Positions 10,952 to 31,534 of a stretch of DNA of 64,000 bases are shown here, piece by piece. The stretch's first letter is position 1. The number at the start of each line of letters is the position of its first letter. Under the pieces are notes generated by a model. It was not told where the DNA came from. It saw only the letters and a program-made list of their open reading frames with translations, and searched no databases. The stretch comes from an uncultured Candidatus Saccharibacteria bacterium (lineage in GTDB: Bacteria > Patescibacteriota > Saccharimonadia > Saccharimonadales > Saccharimonadaceae), in NCBI GenBank assembly GCA_946538495.1, contig CAMNGP010000001.1:57156-121155 (forward strand), in the 5' to 3' direction. The position numbers and the translations under genes were made by a program.

Positions 10952-11009
10952 AGTAGTTTAGCTTTTAATGCAAAGATGGTTTGGTGTAATTTTTTGTGTT
11001 GACTTATTT

Positions 11010-11035
11010 ATACAACAAGAGTATACTTGTTGTAT
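11010..11035. promoter_or_regulatory. Perfect 10-bp inverted repeat overlapping the -10 of the XRE gene promoter (probable operator)
   Basis: ATACAACAAG-AGTATA-CTTGTTGTAT; promoter TTGACT (10999-11004)-N17-TATACT (11022-11027). Confidence 0.75.
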
Positions 11036-11057
11036 ATTAATAACAACAAGGAGCATT

Positions 11058-11429
11058 ATGAAATTCCATGAATTATTCAAGAAAAAAAGAATGGAAGTTG
11101 GAACGGTGCGTGAGTTCGCTAGGCAGTCTGGTTTTGATTTAGCATATATATCTAGATTGGAGAATGGTGTGACTTTGCCGCCAAAAGATAGCAAAAAACT
11201 TGCGAAGCTGGCTAAGGCTTTGAGGCTTCGTGATGATTCTGATGAATGGCAAGAGTTTATGGACCTCGCCGCTGTCGCGAAGAACGAATTACCCGAAGAC
11301 TTGCAAGATAATGAACGAATTGCTTCTGTTTTACCAGCGTTTTATCGAACATTGAGGAATAAGGAGCTAGACGAGACGGAGGTAAAGAAACTCTTAGACA
11401 TGATTAAGAATTCTGGAAAGGAGGATTAA
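11058..11429 (+). CDS. XRE-family HTH transcriptional regulator
   Basis: VREFARQSGFDLAYISRLENGVTLPP; SD AAGGAG, ATG at 11058. Confidence 0.88.
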   Translation: MKFHELFKKKRMEVGTVREFARQSGFDLAYISRLENGVTLPPKDSKKLAKLAKALRLRDDSDEWQEFMDLAAVAKNELPEDLQDNERIASVLPAFYRTLRNKELDETEVKKLLDMIKNSGKED

Positions 11430-11434
11430 TCGAT

Positions 11435-12058
11435 ATGGTTTATTTAGGTGAGGGTGGGAGAGTTCCTTACTTAAATAAGAATAATATAGTAAGGAATGTG
11501 GAGGATACGCTGGAGGAATGTTGGAATGGGGCATTTCCAGTCGACGTGGAAGCTATTTGTGATGATTTAGGAATTGGGATTCTGCCGATTATTGATTTAT
11601 CAAAGACATTTCGAGTGGATGCTTTTATTTCAGCGGATTTTAGAACAATCTATGTTGATAGTCGTGAGTTTGAGAGAGATAGTCACAGATATAGGTTTAG
11701 TGTAGCGCATGAACTTGGGCACTTTGTTTTACATCGTAAGTATTGCCCCCATGTCACTAAAAGTTTAGATGAATGGTTCCGGTTTTTCCGTCGATTTACT
11801 AATGATTATGCAGAATTTCAGGCCAATTATTTTGCTGGAAACTTATTAGTGCCAGAAGCGGAATTAGTACGAGTACTTAACGATGGATTTGATGGAAGTT
11901 TTGTAAGAAATTATTGGAATGCTAGTCCTAGCGAGCTGGGGAGAATATTGATGAAAGTCCGTAGACACTTCAGAGTTTCCGACGATGTGATTGCGAGAAG
12001 AATGAGAGATGCTTTTCCGGGCGTAGATGAAATTGACAATAATAAAAAGTGGAGGTAA
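11435..12058 (+). CDS. ImmA/IrrE-family metallopeptidase
   Basis: VAHELGHFVLH motif, EFQANYFAGNLLVPE. Confidence 0.9.
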   Translation: MVYLGEGGRVPYLNKNNIVRNVEDTLEECWNGAFPVDVEAICDDLGIGILPIIDLSKTFRVDAFISADFRTIYVDSREFERDSHRYRFSVAHELGHFVLHRKYCPHVTKSLDEWFRFFRRFTNDYAEFQANYFAGNLLVPEAELVRVLNDGFDGSFVRNYWNASPSELGRILMKVRRHFRVSDDVIARRMRDAFPGVDEIDNNKKWR

Positions 12059-12060
12059 AA

Positions 12061-12357
12061 ATGACAACAAAAACAAGCAGAGCAAAGACTAAGGCTAAGT
12101 TGCAGTTGGTTTGGGAACGAGGAAAAAGATGTGCGATTTGTGGGAAAAAGATTAAAAGTTTAGATGATCTCACAATTGATCACATTGTGCCATTGGCGGA
12201 AGGCGGCAAGAATGTAATAGAAAACTATCAGCTCGCCCACAAAGCGTGTAATGAGGCAAAGGGCAGTTTGTTGCCGGATGAACATGAAAAATTGCTGAAA
12301 TATAACAGACGACGTATATTATGGATGAGGATACGAAGGGGTATTGTGGTGTGGTAA
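12061..12357 (+). CDS. HNH endonuclease
   Basis: CAICGKKI..LTIDHIVPLAEGGKN..ENYQLAHKACN. Confidence 0.9.
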   Translation: MTTKTSRAKTKAKLQLVWERGKRCAICGKKIKSLDDLTIDHIVPLAEGGKNVIENYQLAHKACNEAKGSLLPDEHEKLLKYNRRRILWMRIRRGIVVW

Positions 12358-12411
12358 TGATTCAATCATGGAGCGTAGTAAGTAATTTGTAAAGTATGGT
12401 ATAATTAAGGG

Positions 12412-12555
12412 GCAATACATCAACATTAACAGTTTGGCAATACGCTAACCTTAGTTTCTATAAAAGGGAAAGTGGGACCCTCATCGGCCCAATTTTGGCC
12501 CCTTTATGGAAGCTAATGTTGGTGTATTGCAAACCGTATGGGGGTTCCATTTTTT
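12412..12555 (+). ncRNA. Candidate structured leader RNA (copy 1): long stem with apical loop pairing to downstream 14-nt segment + U-run
   Basis: 17-bp stem 12412-12428/12514-12530; inner 18-bp helix 12451-12468/12499-12516; 14-bp helix 12471-12484/12538-12551; TTTTTT; promoter TGGTATAAT at 12400-12405. Confidence 0.65.
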
Positions 12556-12611
12556 GTGGTAAATGAATTGGGCCCTAGTAGTTGTCGTATTGCAGAAAGA
12601 AGTTTTCTGCA

Positions 12612-13274
12612 ATGCCCCAAAAGAATCAAAAAGTTGTAGAAAACTCTTCTTCACGGAAGAGTTTTTCTGTTAAGAAAGGTATTAAGTCGCGAGACCGCGT
12701 GCGGAATCGGGGCGAGGTTTTTACGGAGCTTCGGGAAATCAATAATATTCTGGACCTGACGGCGGATGCGCATCGGAATTATAAAGATCAGAGAATCTTG
12801 GAGCCGGCTTGCGGGAATGGAAACTTCTTGGTGGTGATACTGGAGAGGCGGCTTGCAGATATTAAAAAGGCAATTAAGAAAAAGAACCAAGATGATACGG
12901 AATTTGCAATACTAACGGCACTATCTACCATGTATGGCGTGGATATTATGCCGGATAATATCAAAGAGTGTCATGAACGGCTCAAATCAATAATTGAGAA
13001 GTTTTATAAAGAAAGAGTACCGACGAAAAATCGTAGGCCGGAGTTTTTTGATGCCGTGAAGGAGATATTGCGTACGAATATTCAGCTTGGTGACATGCTG
13101 AATGGTAAAGAGAAGATTTGTTTTGTGGAATATACGGTGCCGCGCGATTATTATTTCGTGCGGAATGAATATAGATTGGTGGATTTGGAATTAGGGATTT
13201 TGTCGTCGAAGAAACGAATAAAACCAACGCATTATTTAAAAATAGGAGGAGAAAATGCCAACGAATGTAAGTAA
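12612..13274 (+). CDS. MTase-fold protein (SAM-binding motif, no NPPY seen), upstream partner of the Eco57I-like MTase
   Basis: RILEPACGNGNFLVVILERRL; GVDIMPDNI; start placed at ATG 12612 rather than 12582. Confidence 0.7.
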   Translation: MPQKNQKVVENSSSRKSFSVKKGIKSRDRVRNRGEVFTELREINNILDLTADAHRNYKDQRILEPACGNGNFLVVILERRLADIKKAIKKKNQDDTEFAILTALSTMYGVDIMPDNIKECHERLKSIIEKFYKERVPTKNRRPEFFDAVKEILRTNIQLGDMLNGKEKICFVEYTVPRDYYFVRNEYRLVDLELGILSSKKRIKPTHYLKIGGENANECK

Positions 13275-14805
13275 AAACTTACTAAATCTTTCGCACTATT
13301 ATAAGGATAGGCGAAATCCGGATATTTTGGATTGCATTGCTAATCTTAGTTCGGATGAAGTATTTACGCCACCGGAGCTAGCGGATAAGGTACTGGACTT
13401 ACTACCAGAGGAAGTGTGGAGCAATCCGAATCTAAAATGGCTGGATCCAGCTTGCAAGACGGGTGTGTTTTTAAGACAGATTGCGATTCGTCTGATGGTG
13501 GGGCTGAAGGATGCGATTCCGGATGAAGCGGAGAGACGTGAGCATATTTTTAAGAAAATGTTGTATGGGATGCCGATTACAAGACTTACGGCATTAATGA
13601 GCCGGCGAAGCGTGTATTACGCGAAGAATGCGATGAGCGACAAGTCGGTAGTGAAGTTCAATGACAATGAAGGGAATATCATCTTTGTGCCGATGGAACA
13701 TCATTTTAAGATGGGGAAATGTACGTTTTGTGGACTATCACAAAACGAGAAGGTGCTCGGTAGTCGTGATGGAATGGGGGAGTTAGAAAACCATGCATAT
13801 CAATTTATCCATTTAAAAGAGGAGACATTAAAAACTATGAAATTTGATGTGATTGTGGGGAATCCACCATATCAACTTGGGGATGGTGGGGGTGTTGGTT
13901 CTTCCGCTATGCCCATATATCATTTGTTTATACAACAGGCAAAACGACTAAATGCTAGGTATATAGCATTTATTGTGCCTTCTCGTTGGTTTGCTGGAGG
14001 GAAGGGGCTAGATAGCTTCCGGGATGAGATGCTGAATGACAAGCATATTAAGAAGATAGTTGATTACCCAAATGCTAATGATTGTTTCCCTGGGGTTGAG
14101 ATAAAAGGTGGTGTCAATTATTTTATTTGGGATAGAGACTACAGTGGAGATTGTGAGATTACGAATGTTTATGGAGAAGATTTTTCATCTCTCGCAAAAA
14201 GAAAACTTAATGAATGGGATATTCTAATTAGATGGAATGATGGAACGTCGATTTTGAGAAAAGTCCAAAAAATGGGAGAAGAAACTTTAGATAAAAAAGT
14301 TTCTTCAAGGAGGCCTTTTGGTTTTGGCAGTAATTATTCGAAGTATGATCAGATTAATAACCCAGATAAGGTTAAACTGTACATGATGAATAAAAAAACT
14401 GGATATATTCCGAGGACTTTGGTTCAGCAATCGACGAATTTAATAGATGCAGATAAGGTTTTATTAGCAAAGGCAGGTAGCGTGAACGGCGTTTATCCGA
14501 ACAATATAATCGGAACAGTCTTTGTTGCTGACAAGCCTAGCGTTTGCACAGAAACGTTTCTAGTTGTTGGCCCTTTTCGATCTAATGCAGATGCTGAGTA
14601 TTTTGTAGATTATATGAAAACGAAATTTGTGAGGTTTATGATAATGCTACGGACTCCTACGCAGAATATGAGTAAAGCTTGTTTTTCGTTTGTACCGGAT
14701 TTACCAATGGACCATAAATGGACGGATGAGGAACTGTACAAAAGATACGATTTGTCAGAAGACGAAATTAGCTTTATCGAAAAAATGATTAAGGAGATGG
14801 AATAA
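13255..14805 (+). CDS. Eco57I-like N6-adenine DNA methyltransferase
   Basis: LDPACKTGVFLRQIA motif I; FDVIVGNPPYQLGDGG motif IV. Confidence 0.88.
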   Translation: MPTNVSKNLLNLSHYYKDRRNPDILDCIANLSSDEVFTPPELADKVLDLLPEEVWSNPNLKWLDPACKTGVFLRQIAIRLMVGLKDAIPDEAERREHIFKKMLYGMPITRLTALMSRRSVYYAKNAMSDKSVVKFNDNEGNIIFVPMEHHFKMGKCTFCGLSQNEKVLGSRDGMGELENHAYQFIHLKEETLKTMKFDVIVGNPPYQLGDGGGVGSSAMPIYHLFIQQAKRLNARYIAFIVPSRWFAGGKGLDSFRDEMLNDKHIKKIVDYPNANDCFPGVEIKGGVNYFIWDRDYSGDCEITNVYGEDFSSLAKRKLNEWDILIRWNDGTSILRKVQKMGEETLDKKVSSRRPFGFGSNYSKYDQINNPDKVKLYMMNKKTGYIPRTLVQQSTNLIDADKVLLAKAGSVNGVYPNNIIGTVFVADKPSVCTETFLVVGPFRSNADAEYFVDYMKTKFVRFMIMLRTPTQNMSKACFSFVPDLPMDHKWTDEELYKRYDLSEDEISFIEKMIKEME

Positions 14806-15371
14806 TGGCATTAGTAAATAGAGATAGGGAGAAAGACCTGAATGACTACGAAAAAATAGCCGACGTAATAATAAGCCATTCTGAAATAGATAAAATAATG
14901 TCTGAATTATTAGCTGCATTTATTGGTGACGATATTGAGTTGTCTTATGCTATCAACGATAGCGCAAAACTAAGCTTTGAACAGAAACGGATTCTCTTGA
15001 CGGAAATAATAAAAAGATATAAAGATAGCAATTGGAAGAAAGAGTTGCTGTTCTTTTTAAAAACAATTCAGAATCTTGAACAATTTCGAAATAAAATTGC
15101 ACACGGTAATACATTGAGAGAGATATTAAGAAAAAAGACTTTGAATGAGATACCGTATTTACGCAATAATTCAATCTTCCAAAAAGAGTGGCCACAGGAT
15201 ATAGATATTGACGTTTTATACAGTAATTATAATGAAGTGTTAAGTACGAATAATCCGTATGTGAAAAAAGAATACTTAATAAAAGGCCAAACTGATGACT
15301 TGTATTTTTTGATAGATAGATTGGAACAAATACCACCAAGCGAAATAATAGAGGAGATTAAAAATGAGTGA
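14805..15371 (+). CDS. HEPN-like protein in RM operon
   Basis: All-helical sequence with LEQFRNKIAHGN (RxxxxH-type) motif; start overlaps upstream stop. Confidence 0.5.
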   Translation: MALVNRDREKDLNDYEKIADVIISHSEIDKIMSELLAAFIGDDIELSYAINDSAKLSFEQKRILLTEIIKRYKDSNWKKELLFFLKTIQNLEQFRNKIAHGNTLREILRKKTLNEIPYLRNNSIFQKEWPQDIDIDVLYSNYNEVLSTNNPYVKKEYLIKGQTDDLYFLIDRLEQIPPSEIIEEIKNE

Positions 15372-17853
15372 CATTTTGAATTATCAAGCCAAGCCGAGGC
15401 AGATTTATGCCTATACGGCGAATGGACAAATTGGGATTAAGGTGGGGGATACGACGAAGGATGATGTAAATATTCGAATTCAACAAGGGCTAGTGAATAC
15501 GCCGAACCCGCAATATCATATTGAATTTGTGGATTATGCGGTTACCGTTGATGGGCATTTGTTTCGCGATTATGATGTACATCATGCGCTAGAAGATTTA
15601 GGTGTAAAGCGATTGAAGAATCAAGATGGTTCGAGTACAGAATGGTTCGAGACGGATGTTGCGACGGTTAGGCAAGCATTCCTGACAGTGAAACATGGTC
15701 GGATGGTTCAGAAAGCTCGGACGAAAGATTATGCACCCCGTGACGAGCAGAAGAAATTTATCCGTGAGACGGAATCGTATTTTAGAACTTATGATGCGAA
15801 TCCGAAGAACGATAAGGCGCCACATTATTTATGGAATGCGAAAATGCGTTTTGGGAAAACTTTTACGGCGTATGAACTCGCTAAGAAAATGAATTGGAAG
15901 CGGATTTTGGTGCTAACTTATAAACCAGCGACGGCGAAACAGTGGCGTGATGATTTGGAAGAGCATATTGATTTTGAAGGTTGGCAATTCATTAAGGGCG
16001 GTGATTATGATTGGAATAAGATTGACCAGTCGCAACCGATTGTGTGGTTTGCAAGCTATCAAGATATCTTGGGAAGAGATAAAGGCAAGACGGTAAAAGA
16101 AAAGTTTATCAAGATGTATGAGCAATCGTGGGATGCGATGTTCGTGGATGAATACCATTTCGGAGCGTGGCGTGATGCGGCGAAAGAACTGGGGCAAGCA
16201 AAAGATGACAACGAGACGGTGATGCCAGAAGAGGGCGATGAGGAGGGTGAAATTGAGGCGACGATGCCGCTTGACGTGAAACACTATGTGTATCTGTCGG
16301 GAACGCCATTCCGGGCGATTGCGGATGGGGAATTTGCGGAGGATCAGATTTCGAACTGGACTTATGCAGATGAGCAGAGAAAGAAAGAGGAATATGCGGG
16401 GCGTAAAGATAACCCTTATGCGGAGTTACCGCAAATTGTGATGATGACATATAAGATGCCAGAGAAGTTGCGCGAAGTGGCGATGCAGGGAGAATTTAAT
16501 GAATTTGATCTCAATACCTTCTTTGCGGCGAAGAAAAATGAGCAGGGCGAATATGTATTTGACCGCGAAAATGATGTGCAAGCGTTTTTGTCGATTTTAC
16601 ATGGAGCTAATCTGGAACAAAATGTTGAGGATGGGTTTGCAGCAAAGAGGCCACCAATTCCGTATGAAGATGCAAGACTTTTATCTGTGCTCAATCATAC
16701 CTTTTGGTTACTACCAAATGTTCCGAGTTGTAAGGCGATGAAAAGGTTGTTAGAGCGAAACAACTTCTTTAGGCAGTATAAGATTGTTTGTGCAGCAGGA
16801 AATGAAGCTGGGATGGGCGAGGCGGCACTTGTGCCAGTGATGGAGGCGATAACTGATGATCCATTTTCGACAAAAACGATTACACTGTCATGTCAAAAAT
16901 TAACGACTGGCGTAACAGTAAGACCTTGGACTGGCGTGTTTTTCCTGCGTAATATTACGGCGCCGGAAACATATTTTCAGGCGGGATTTCGAGCACAGTC
17001 ACCATGGTCTTATACGAACGAGGCAGGTGAAAAGGAAATCTTTAAGGAAACTTGCTATGTGTTTGATTTTGCGCCGACGAGAGCGATTAAGCTAATATCG
17101 GATTATGTTTCTGGGTTGGGGGTAGGTGATAAGAGAAAACCAGAAGAGCAAATTCAAGAGTTTTTGCACTTTTTGCCAATACTAAGTTATGACGGATATG
17201 TAATGCAATCGCTTGACGCGAAGTCGGTGCTGGATATTTCGACATTTGGGATTGGTTCGACGATGCTCGCGAGACGATGGCAATCGGCGAGATTGGTGGA
17301 TGTTTCGAATGTGGTATTGGAAAAGGTACTCAATAATGCCGAGCTGATGGCGGCGCTAGAAAAGATTGAGGACTTCCGGAATCTGAGGCAAGATATGACA
17401 AAGGTGATTGCGAGAGAGAAGGCGATTAATCAGACGAAGAAGGAAGGAAAGGAATTAACGCCGCGGGAGAAGAAAGAAAAGAAAGAGAATGATGGATTTA
17501 AGAAAAAGTTGCGAGAAAAACTATTGAAGTTTCTCACGCGAGTGCCAGTATTTATGTATCTGACTGAATATCGTGAGGAAACTCTGAAAGATGTGATTAC
17601 GCAGCTTGAGCCGGAGTTATTTACTAGAGTGACTGGGATTACAGTGCGAGATTTTGAACTGATGTGCGAAATTGGCGTATTTAATAAGGGGCACGTGAAT
17701 GAAGCGGTATATCAATTTAGGAGATTTGAGGATTCATCACTTAATTATGTTGGTGGTCATGATGAAGTGGGCGATATGATGGCGCTAATTGGTGGGTTTG
17801 ATGCGGTGGTGACTAGGGAGGAAGCGGATGAAATAATTGAGGGAGTAGTGTAA
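15364..17853 (+). CDS. GIY-YIG/T5orf172-like nuclease fused to SF2 DEAD/DEAH helicase (restriction subunit)
   Basis: IYAYTANGQIGIKVGDT...RI...EWF; NAKMRFGKTFTAYELAKK Walker A; VDEYHFGAW; YLSGTPFRA. Confidence 0.8.
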   Translation: MSDILNYQAKPRQIYAYTANGQIGIKVGDTTKDDVNIRIQQGLVNTPNPQYHIEFVDYAVTVDGHLFRDYDVHHALEDLGVKRLKNQDGSSTEWFETDVATVRQAFLTVKHGRMVQKARTKDYAPRDEQKKFIRETESYFRTYDANPKNDKAPHYLWNAKMRFGKTFTAYELAKKMNWKRILVLTYKPATAKQWRDDLEEHIDFEGWQFIKGGDYDWNKIDQSQPIVWFASYQDILGRDKGKTVKEKFIKMYEQSWDAMFVDEYHFGAWRDAAKELGQAKDDNETVMPEEGDEEGEIEATMPLDVKHYVYLSGTPFRAIADGEFAEDQISNWTYADEQRKKEEYAGRKDNPYAELPQIVMMTYKMPEKLREVAMQGEFNEFDLNTFFAAKKNEQGEYVFDRENDVQAFLSILHGANLEQNVEDGFAAKRPPIPYEDARLLSVLNHTFWLLPNVPSCKAMKRLLERNNFFRQYKIVCAAGNEAGMGEAALVPVMEAITDDPFSTKTITLSCQKLTTGVTVRPWTGVFFLRNITAPETYFQAGFRAQSPWSYTNEAGEKEIFKETCYVFDFAPTRAIKLISDYVSGLGVGDKRKPEEQIQEFLHFLPILSYDGYVMQSLDAKSVLDISTFGIGSTMLARRWQSARLVDVSNVVLEKVLNNAELMAALEKIEDFRNLRQDMTKVIAREKAINQTKKEGKELTPREKKEKKENDGFKKKLREKLLKFLTRVPVFMYLTEYREETLKDVITQLEPELFTRVTGITVRDFELMCEIGVFNKGHVNEAVYQFRRFEDSSLNYVGGHDEVGDMMALIGGFDAVVTREEADEIIEGVV

Positions 17854-18320
17854 TGATAATGACAAATGTGGAACTGGGAGATTCTGTTCAGAAGATAGGT
17901 TTTCCTTCTGGGATTGTTGATGAATTAAAGAAAATCGGGATTAGTACAGTTGGGGATTTAGTTAGCAAAGATACGGATGGGCTATTTGATGATAATTTTA
18001 CCCTCAAGAATTATTTGAGTAGATTCTTTATAATAAATGCAGGTGGCGGTGAAAAGGAAAACAAAAAAGAAGAAGAAACGATTAGGTTTGATGGGTTTAC
18101 GTTCCAAAAGGATTTACAGCAGTTTATAAAAGAACATTATGCTAAACAAATAGAAATTCGATATAAAACGCATCGGGCTAAAAGCGATAAGAGATGGCGG
18201 CGGGTTGAAGTAGCTGGGCAAAATGAGGATCTTTTATTTACCAATGATGTTCGTTCGTCTGGTAAACGCGTCGCTTATGTGAAAGAAAAAATTGTAGAGT
18301 TCCGCGAAGTGAATGATTAA
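17853..18320 (+). CDS. Hypothetical, HhH/RpoA-CTD-like N-terminus; last ORF of RM operon
   Basis: PSGIVDELKKIGISTVGDLV; start adjacent to upstream stop. Confidence 0.5.
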   Translation: MIMTNVELGDSVQKIGFPSGIVDELKKIGISTVGDLVSKDTDGLFDDNFTLKNYLSRFFIINAGGGEKENKKEEETIRFDGFTFQKDLQQFIKEHYAKQIEIRYKTHRAKSDKRWRRVEVAGQNEDLLFTNDVRSSGKRVAYVKEKIVEFREVND

Positions 18321-29846: not shown

Positions 29847-29891
29847 GATGTTTTTTTATTGACGTTAGAAGAAATATGGTATAATGATATT

Positions 29892-30032
29892 GCTATATTC
29901 AATCATTCCGTTCTGCGTCAGTGTATCCTAGGCCGATCGTTAGAAATGATGGCACCATAAGGCACCGTCTTTTGCGAACGGTTATAAACTGGCGCAGAAT
30001 GATTGTATATAGCACCTTGTGGTGCCATTTTT
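29892..30032 (+). ncRNA. Candidate structured leader RNA (copy 2), same architecture as 12412-12555
   Basis: 17-bp stem 29892-29908/29997-30013 (one mismatch), extended by CTGCGTCAGT/ACTGGCGCAG; 14-bp helix 29949-29962/30015-30028; TTTTT; TATGGTATAAT promoter. Confidence 0.65.
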
Positions 30033-30088: not shown

Positions 30089-31534
30089 ATGAAGAAAAAC
30101 ATAACATTAAGTTTAGAAAACATAACAGACCATTTAACAGGGGCCAAAAAAATTATAATATTGTGTTTTCTAATCTCAACGTTATGTTTTTTTAATTCGG
30201 ACGATTCTTCCGCCCTCACCTACCAACAAGACATCCCAGTCTCATTCACCTTTAATTCTTCAGTCGCACTCTCCCTCTCTTCTGCCGATCTCAATATCTA
30301 CAATCTCTCCCCAGGCACCAGCAGCGACAGCAATATCGTCACAGTGACTGCTACTTCCAACAATTCCACTGGCTATGTTATCACTGCTACCGTAGGCGAT
30401 AATACTCATAGTAATCCATCCTATAGCAATACCAGCCTTAACCACACTAGCAATACTGGCAACACCTTCACTAGTCTAGCCACTACAGCTAGCTTAGCTA
30501 GCCTCACAGCAGACAATACTTGGGGCTATACTATTTCTGAAGATGGTAATACTTGGTCTAACTATTCTGGCCTGCCCATCTACACTGCCGAATCTGGCAA
30601 AACCTTAAAAGAGCTAAACACTAACGGCACCACCTCCTTTCAATTTAAAATCGGTGCCAAAGCTTCTAACACCCAGCCTTCTGGCGAATACAGAAATGTG
30701 ATCAATTTTACACTCACCACTAATGCAGTAGACAGCACCTATTACATGCAAGATGTAGGAACATGGGGAGATTCCATCCCTGCTGGCGCCGAAATCACCG
30801 CCGTAGATAACCGTGATGGTAAATCCTACACCGTAGCTAGACTTGCTGATGGGAACCTTTGGATGACCCAAAACCTAGATCACGACATAGACTCCACCAA
30901 GACTTACACTCCAGCTGATACTGATATTCCAGCCAACTGGACGCCAAGTCTCTCTACCTATGCTGCTAATGATACTACTTGGGAGTTTTCAACCACCACG
31001 CCAGAATCTTACGATCCAGGTACGCTATATTGGAGCGGCACACCAAACGATAATATTCCAGCATCGTCAGGCAATTCTCATTATCACTTAGGCAACTATT
31101 ACAACTGGTCTGCAGCCGTGGCTATGAACAACACTTCATCATATACTACCAATCAGACTCTAATAGACCAATCTATTTGTCCAGCTGGCTGGACTCTGCC
31201 TAGAGTTGGCTACGGTGAGGATACTTTCTACGGACTTTGGAGCGAATATGGATATGACGACAATAGTAGCGCCTTTAGCAGCATTTCTACTTTAACTGGC
31301 TCGCCTGCCTACTTTGCTCCTACCGGCAGTTGGGGCGGCTCGTTTGACACCATCGGCGATGGCGGGCTCTTTTGGTCGCCCGTCGTGGGGGCTAGCAACT
31401 CTTCCTACTACGCCGGCTTCAATATGGACGGCGATGCCTACCCGTCCGACGGCGATACCTTCATCCGCGACTACGGTAACTCTATCCGTTGTGTAGCCCG
31501 CCCCGTTACTTCTACGCTTCAGTGGAGCCCTTAG
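30089..31534 (+). CDS. Fib_succ_major (TIGR02145-like) surface protein
   Basis: Signal peptide; TYTVARLADGNLWMTQNLDHDID; CPAGWTLPR; FWSPVVG; NSIRCVARP. Confidence 0.8.
   Translation: MKKNITLSLENITDHLTGAKKIIILCFLISTLCFFNSDDSSALTYQQDIPVSFTFNSSVALSLSSADLNIYNLSPGTSSDSNIVTVTATSNNSTGYVITATVGDNTHSNPSYSNTSLNHTSNTGNTFTSLATTASLASLTADNTWGYTISEDGNTWSNYSGLPIYTAESGKTLKELNTNGTTSFQFKIGAKASNTQPSGEYRNVINFTLTTNAVDSTYYMQDVGTWGDSIPAGAEITAVDNRDGKSYTVARLADGNLWMTQNLDHDIDSTKTYTPADTDIPANWTPSLSTYAANDTTWEFSTTTPESYDPGTLYWSGTPNDNIPASSGNSHYHLGNYYNWSAAVAMNNTSSYTTNQTLIDQSICPAGWTLPRVGYGEDTFYGLWSEYGYDDNSSAFSSISTLTGSPAYFAPTGSWGGSFDTIGDGGLFWSPVVGASNSSYYAGFNMDGDAYPSDGDTFIRDYGNSIRCVARPVTSTLQWSP

Follow-up and report, generated by a model that had tools for sequence, protein, structure and literature searches.

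A structured leader RNA upstream of a Saccharibacteria restriction–modification operon belongs to a larger family of pseudoknotted leaders

What is encoded in the ∼200 nt that separate a promoter-like box from the first gene of a restriction–modification (RM) operon, and is it peculiar to that operon? The Saccharibacteria, mostly uncultured and host-bound, have small genomes. We analyzed a 64,000-nt stretch of one of them (hereafter the window), in which an initial annotation had placed a pseudoknotted, attenuator- or riboswitch-like leader ahead of the operon. The operon lies on the forward strand and begins with a DNA methyltransferase fragment (MmeI/type II MTase-like; 12612–13274). The remaining genes (13255–18320, + strand) encode an Eco57I-type MTase, a protein of 188 aa, a ResIII/T5orf172 protein and a protein of 155 aa.

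The leader of the restriction–modification operon

The RM-operon leader is a genuine folded RNA: nt 12412–12557 fold at –77.3 kcal/mol, whereas dinucleotide-shuffled sequences average –50.1 ± 4.2 (z = –6.4; 0 of 200 shuffles). All of its elements lie on the + strand. A TATAAT at 12400–12405, reported as the –10 box, is indeed present and forms part of an extended –10 element, TGGTATAAT (12397–12405); transcription is predicted to start at about 12411–12413. The outer stem pairs 12412–12428 with 12514–12530 over 17 bp with one G-U, exactly as described. The inner stem (12451–12468 with 12499–12516) was also recovered, although it shares 12514–12516 with the outer one: their last and first pairs compete, and the total is ∼32 pairs rather than 35. 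From the apical loop, strand P1 (12471–12484) pairs with strand T (12538–12551), and this pseudoknot helix, too, has the reported 14 nt and three G-U pairs and runs into a U run (12550–12555). It can grow to about 18 pairs through a one-base bulge and A:U pairs that extend into the U run.

The leader also contains two copies of GCAATAC on its 5′ side and two of GTATTGC on its 3′ side, which creates competing alternative pairings. Copy A1 (at 12412) belongs to the 5′ arm of the outer stem. Copy A2, in the 5′ bulge, corresponds to the annotated motif GCAATACG, which is present but at 12437–12444, one base from where it had been placed. Copy B1 (12524–12530) is included in the 3′ arm of the outer stem, and copy B2 (12587–12593) falls in CGTATTGC, found at 12586–12593 as claimed. 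A2 could substitute for A1 as the partner of 12524–12530, or else pair with 12587–12593; both A2 and B2 are invariant in five homologues. B2 lies within the 5′ strand of a start-region hairpin (12588–12614) with AGAAAGAAG in its stem and loop. This hairpin, seen in the five-homologue consensus fold and kept in 5/5 homologues, has the ATG (12612–12614) at its 3′ foot and is an extra feature of the RM version of the leader.

The five homologues come from the window's genome (G000) and from a DNA search of 150 relatives, which found the leader in four further genomes of the genus, at identities of 98% (G003), 93% (G081), 72% (G045) and 70% (G074). G000 and G003 have unrelated upstream DNA, with similarity starting at the –10 box. 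By our reading of the translations, the leader is followed by Eco57I-type RM genes in G000, G003 and G074 and by type III Mod-like methyltransferase genes in G081 and G045; thus, the leader persists while the RM module changes. TATAAT is invariant across the five homologues, its placement is the same in the multicopy family described below, and the U run was found in 5/5. Because RNAalifold blends the pseudoknot with the nested fold for these five leaders, named structures were counted instead. Four of the 14 P1:T pairs are altered on both sides in the five-genome alignment, and 98.0% of cells are paired, versus 39–49% when the strands are slid. The outer stem is paired in 98.8% of cells, but 13 of its 17 pairs are invariant, so it provides little covariation by itself. 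The inner stem of G074 and G045 is quite different in sequence, with complementarity again intact. Such compensatory changes among homologues bear out the proposal of an RNA-level feature.

A second leader and a multicopy family

The initial annotation had suggested that a second element in the window, at 29892–30032, shares this structure. We place that leader at 29890–30032 (+ strand). It is preceded by TATAAT (29880–29885) and comprises an outer stem (5′ arm, 29891–29922; 3′ arm, 29988–30014) with compensatory changes in relatives, P1 ATGGCACCATAAGG (29949–29962), and T CCTTGTGGTGCCAT plus U5 (30015–30032). The gene downstream (30089–31534, + strand) encodes a secreted surface protein with a FISUMP domain (TIGR02145). 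The RM leader has the same layout: the stem, with its outer and inner parts, has a –10 box at its foot, P1 occupies its loop, T follows just 3′ of it, and a U run comes next. A downstream copy of P1, termed P2 (30048–30057, + strand), can also pair with T and, here as in many relatives, with part of the U run. P2 is strong in G084, G044 and some G023 copies and missing from G012 and G059; P2 as a universal feature was rejected, family statistics showing it to be lineage-specific.

A structural scan of 510 kb of the window's genome, a total in which the window is in part counted with overlap, yielded only these two leaders with the arrangement described. Two other strong matches were ordinary nested hairpins, and the remainder were weak. 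Long nested hairpins with GGGACC...GTGTCCC arms and U-run ends occur at L012:3842–3950 and near L013:11806 (minus strand). The inner part of the L012 hairpin is richly structured, and this locus may represent a further structured RNA.

With the second leader as query, many genomes showed partial matches, frequently more than one or two apiece. Counts of a P1/T sequence pattern were highest in G063 (30), G055 (26), G023 (16) and G084 (15), with a few copies scored on both strands. Read backwards, as a control, the pattern gave near zero, and outside the genus almost nothing. Across 85,462 species genomes it picked out 119 stretches, nearly all in Candidatus Saccharibacteria records, many of which come from goat, sheep and dairy-cattle gut. 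One leader (L181) is on contig CANRDN010000043.1, which was assigned to an uncultured Bacilli bacterium but is probably Saccharibacteria DNA placed in the wrong bin. Neither a DNA search of phages and plasmids nor a pattern search of viral contigs found a leader.

A covariance model trained on the five RM leaders alone matched multicopy members in G063, G055, G009, G012, G015, G051 and G061 (E = 1e-7 to 4e-3). This links the RM and multicopy groups without recourse to the P1/T pattern, and confirms a structure in common with the second leader's family. The RM leader is therefore an outlying branch of a large leader family. The RNA-level element first put forward for the RM operon stands, but not as one specific to RM, for the large branch precedes surface-protein genes. 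Because literature searches returned no description of the leader but had most subscription journals and preprints outside their scope, they are weak evidence of novelty; the multicopy leaders apparently form an undescribed, genus-restricted RNA family. The genomes are mostly metagenome-assembled, with many leader copies at contig ends, and true copy numbers are probably higher than those counted. In G012, G023, G063 and G084, the distance of many copies to a contig end is 100–300 bases, which is what near-identical repeats at the starts of the following genes would produce.

Most downstream proteins begin, in our reading, with a signal-peptide or membrane-anchor sequence. FISUMP (TIGR02145) was matched by 18 of the 21 that were scanned, some just below the curated cut-off; two matched Listeria–Bacteroides repeats and one had no match. 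A perfect TATAAT lies just 5′ of the stem in 58 of 116 elements (71 in a wider stretch), and TG occurs one base 5′ of the –10 box in 77. The distance from U run to start codon has a median of 69 nt. In this gap, perfect –10 boxes were not in excess over shuffles, and 5-of-6 matches showed a modest or weak excess at most. With no clear promoter in the gap, the most economical interpretation is that transcription crosses the U run to reach the gene.

Architecture and covariation across the family

We paired 5′ regions with the regions between P1 and T among 131 non-redundant elements. Each region's own partner was the best one in 123 cases, and mean duplex energy was –46.2 kcal/mol with own partners versus –20.2 with foreign ones. 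Hence, stem sequence is free to vary while complementarity is retained. These data bear on the idea of a small, MITE-like mobile repeat that has spread 5′ of genes, to which multiple copies and inverted repeats lend some appeal. The arms, however, vary between copies yet stay self-complementary, orientation and distance to the start codon are kept, and the phage, plasmid and viral collections gave no match. We consider this explanation exceedingly improbable.

Architecture was examined in 116 elements folded with P1 held open. The outer helix has 25 bp (interquartile range, 23–27) and the inner helix ∼15 bp. The 5′ side alone carries a bulge, of 16 nt; P1 is flanked by linkers of 5 and 6 nt, and T starts about 1 nt past the outer helix. 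The bulge is U-rich (85/105, versus about 31 expected from the remaining 5′ side) and forms a mini-hairpin in roughly half the cases (mean –2.5 kcal/mol, versus –1.4 for shuffled sequences). In surface-protein leaders such as L083, L125 and L152, this hinge bulge is a U-rich segment, often a mini-hairpin whose loop is U-rich, and has no 3′ bulge opposite. The segment might take part in a three-way junction or reach the A-rich start of P1. Conserved sequence in the surface-protein branch is confined to P1, T and the U-rich hinge. Since no conserved aptamer-like sequence core was found in this large branch, the label 'riboswitch' is unproven.

Pairing between P1 and T was tallied at six positions in 60 elements, the count being limited to positions that the search pattern leaves unconstrained. 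There were 281 Watson–Crick and 43 G-U combinations, versus 15 A-C and 21 others. The excess of G-U over A-C indicates that the pairing belongs to the sense RNA. When T was shuffled among copies of the same genome, the observed pairing mean was reached in 0 of 2000 trials. G084, for example, carries P1/T variants GTAAGG/CCTTGC, GTTAGG/CCTAGC and ACTTGG/CCAGGT. P1:T pairing is selected in cis.

Might the unit instead be a stand-alone small RNA gene of about 140–165 nt, acting in trans, for example on other leaders of the family? A promoter-like box of its own and an end resembling a terminator favor this view, and copies within a genome mostly share P1/T sequences, which would make trans pairing possible. 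Yet P1 and T match better in cis than between copies of the same genome, and a gene starts a median of 69 nt past the U run, across a gap with no clear promoter. This makes a free-standing RNA improbable.

Possible modes of action

With moderate confidence, we favor reading the leader as a transcription attenuator whose terminator-like helix takes one strand from the apical loop. Transcription of this cis-acting RNA would begin at the base of the stem, ahead of the operon. As it emerges, the nascent RNA would fold into the long two-part stem, holding P1 in the apical loop; T, on leaving the polymerase, would then pair with P1 to give a helix of 13–18 bp abutting the U run. P1:T would thus serve as the terminator, its 5′ half supplied by the loop of an upstream domain. 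Premature termination would be the outcome unless it were prevented, either by the fold upstream or by another pairing that claims T. Read-through would follow if the upstream domain misfolded or were bound, or if T were captured by another partner.

T could pair in three ways: with P1, within a local hairpin or, in some lineages, with P2. For the RM leaders, the local hairpin of T is worth only –2 to –3 kcal/mol, compared with –25 to –31 for P1:T. Hence, if the U run terminates transcription there, P1:T must be the helix. These leaders are therefore not classical intrinsic terminators, in which a short-loop GC hairpin directly precedes the U run. In the surface-protein leaders the local hairpin is stronger (mean –7.2 kcal/mol, versus –26.4 for P1:T), so P1:T could be an antiterminator there: the T hairpin plus U5 would terminate, and capture of T by P1 would allow read-through. 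Nearly all surface-protein leaders tested have this hairpin (GCACC/GGUGC), and it and P1:T are mutually exclusive. But the local hairpin of the RM leaders is weak, it is P1:T itself that abuts the U run, and CA separates the local hairpin from U5. Overall, we regard an antiterminator role as unlikely.

Attenuation by P1:T faces a difficulty of its own, in that intrinsic terminators usually have a longer U run than U5. Nearly all copies have U5 after T, but most of them were picked by a TTTTT-containing pattern; of the loci fetched without demanding TTTTT, most also keep it, while G027 and G031 supply exceptions. P1:T is kept and the U run absent in G027 and in one G051 copy. Geometry matters as well. 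A fully rigid stem would hold P1 off T, so a bend at the bulge or partial opening would be needed. Together, P1:T and the inner helix span about 28 bp, similar to the outer helix with its roughly 25 bp, which suggests that folding back at the bulge could bring P1 to T. In the RM branch, the A and B repeats and the start-codon hairpin suggest a second, translational step, in which GCAATAC/GTATTGC segments would open the hairpin or leave it closed.

The leaders resemble attenuators and terminator-type riboswitch leaders in having a promoter-proximal structured leader, strand competition and a U run before the gene. They differ in two respects: a long-range pseudoknot provides the terminator-like helix, and the upstream stem of the large branch shows no sequence conservation. 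The pseudoknot aptamers of preQ1 and ZTP riboswitches feed an expression platform (reviewed in PMC11625349), and the ZTP riboswitch works with strand displacement (PMC10085676). A pseudoknot coupled to expression control would be common to these systems and ours, but our leaders have much longer stems, surface-protein and RM genes downstream, and no Rfam match. Indeed, a search of Rfam 15 at the gathering score, covering the window and 20 homologous loci, returned tRNAs and no leader match, in keeping with the annotation's failure to name a motif; below threshold, leader matches were weak and implausible.

The T-box core UGGNACC sits in the antiterminator, and P1 often reads UGGNACC, ahead of a terminator-like partner. 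We nonetheless rejected a T-box leader. The motif is broken in homologues (UGGGGUCC in G074 and CGGGGUCC in G045) and in the P1 variants UGGCAUC and UGGCGCC (many copies) and UGGGGUC; there was no Rfam T-box match, and no aminoacyl-tRNA genes were found. Type III toxin–antitoxin RNA was rejected as well, there being no tandem short-repeat array and the downstream genes being RM or surface-protein genes.

Tentatively, these leaders may represent a new RNA family in which the pseudoknot is itself the terminator, built on a sequence-free scaffold that presents one strand in its loop. It would set premature termination for dozens of surface-protein genes of a host-bound bacterium and would also have been recruited to RM operons, in which case surface proteins and defence could be adjusted jointly by a single signal. 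Occurring up to about 30 times per genome, nearly always before surface proteins, the leaders are candidates for governing the choice of displayed surface molecules. A pseudoknot terminator with drifting stem arms would be nearly invisible to sequence searches and may exist elsewhere.

Directly 5′ of the RM leader (10968–12358) lie a CapH-like HTH gene (10968–11429), a CapP-like (ImmA/IrrE) protease gene and then an HNH gene. CapH and CapP, a protein repressor and a protease, act on DNA and control immune operons. The presence of such a pair beside this RM operon suggests a DNA-level control step too, and the DNA-damage switch described for immune operons may operate here as well; the leader differs in being RNA. 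Could the repeats then be operators for the CapH-like protein, with the RNA fold incidental? Besides the adjoining genes, the four occurrences of GCAATAC/GTATTGC in the leader would fit this idea. We judge it very unlikely, given the covariation, G-U pairs included, and the position of the multicopy relatives before surface-protein genes. Moreover, the G003 homologue has unrelated sequence 5′ of the –10 box. Operator control would be at best an extra layer.
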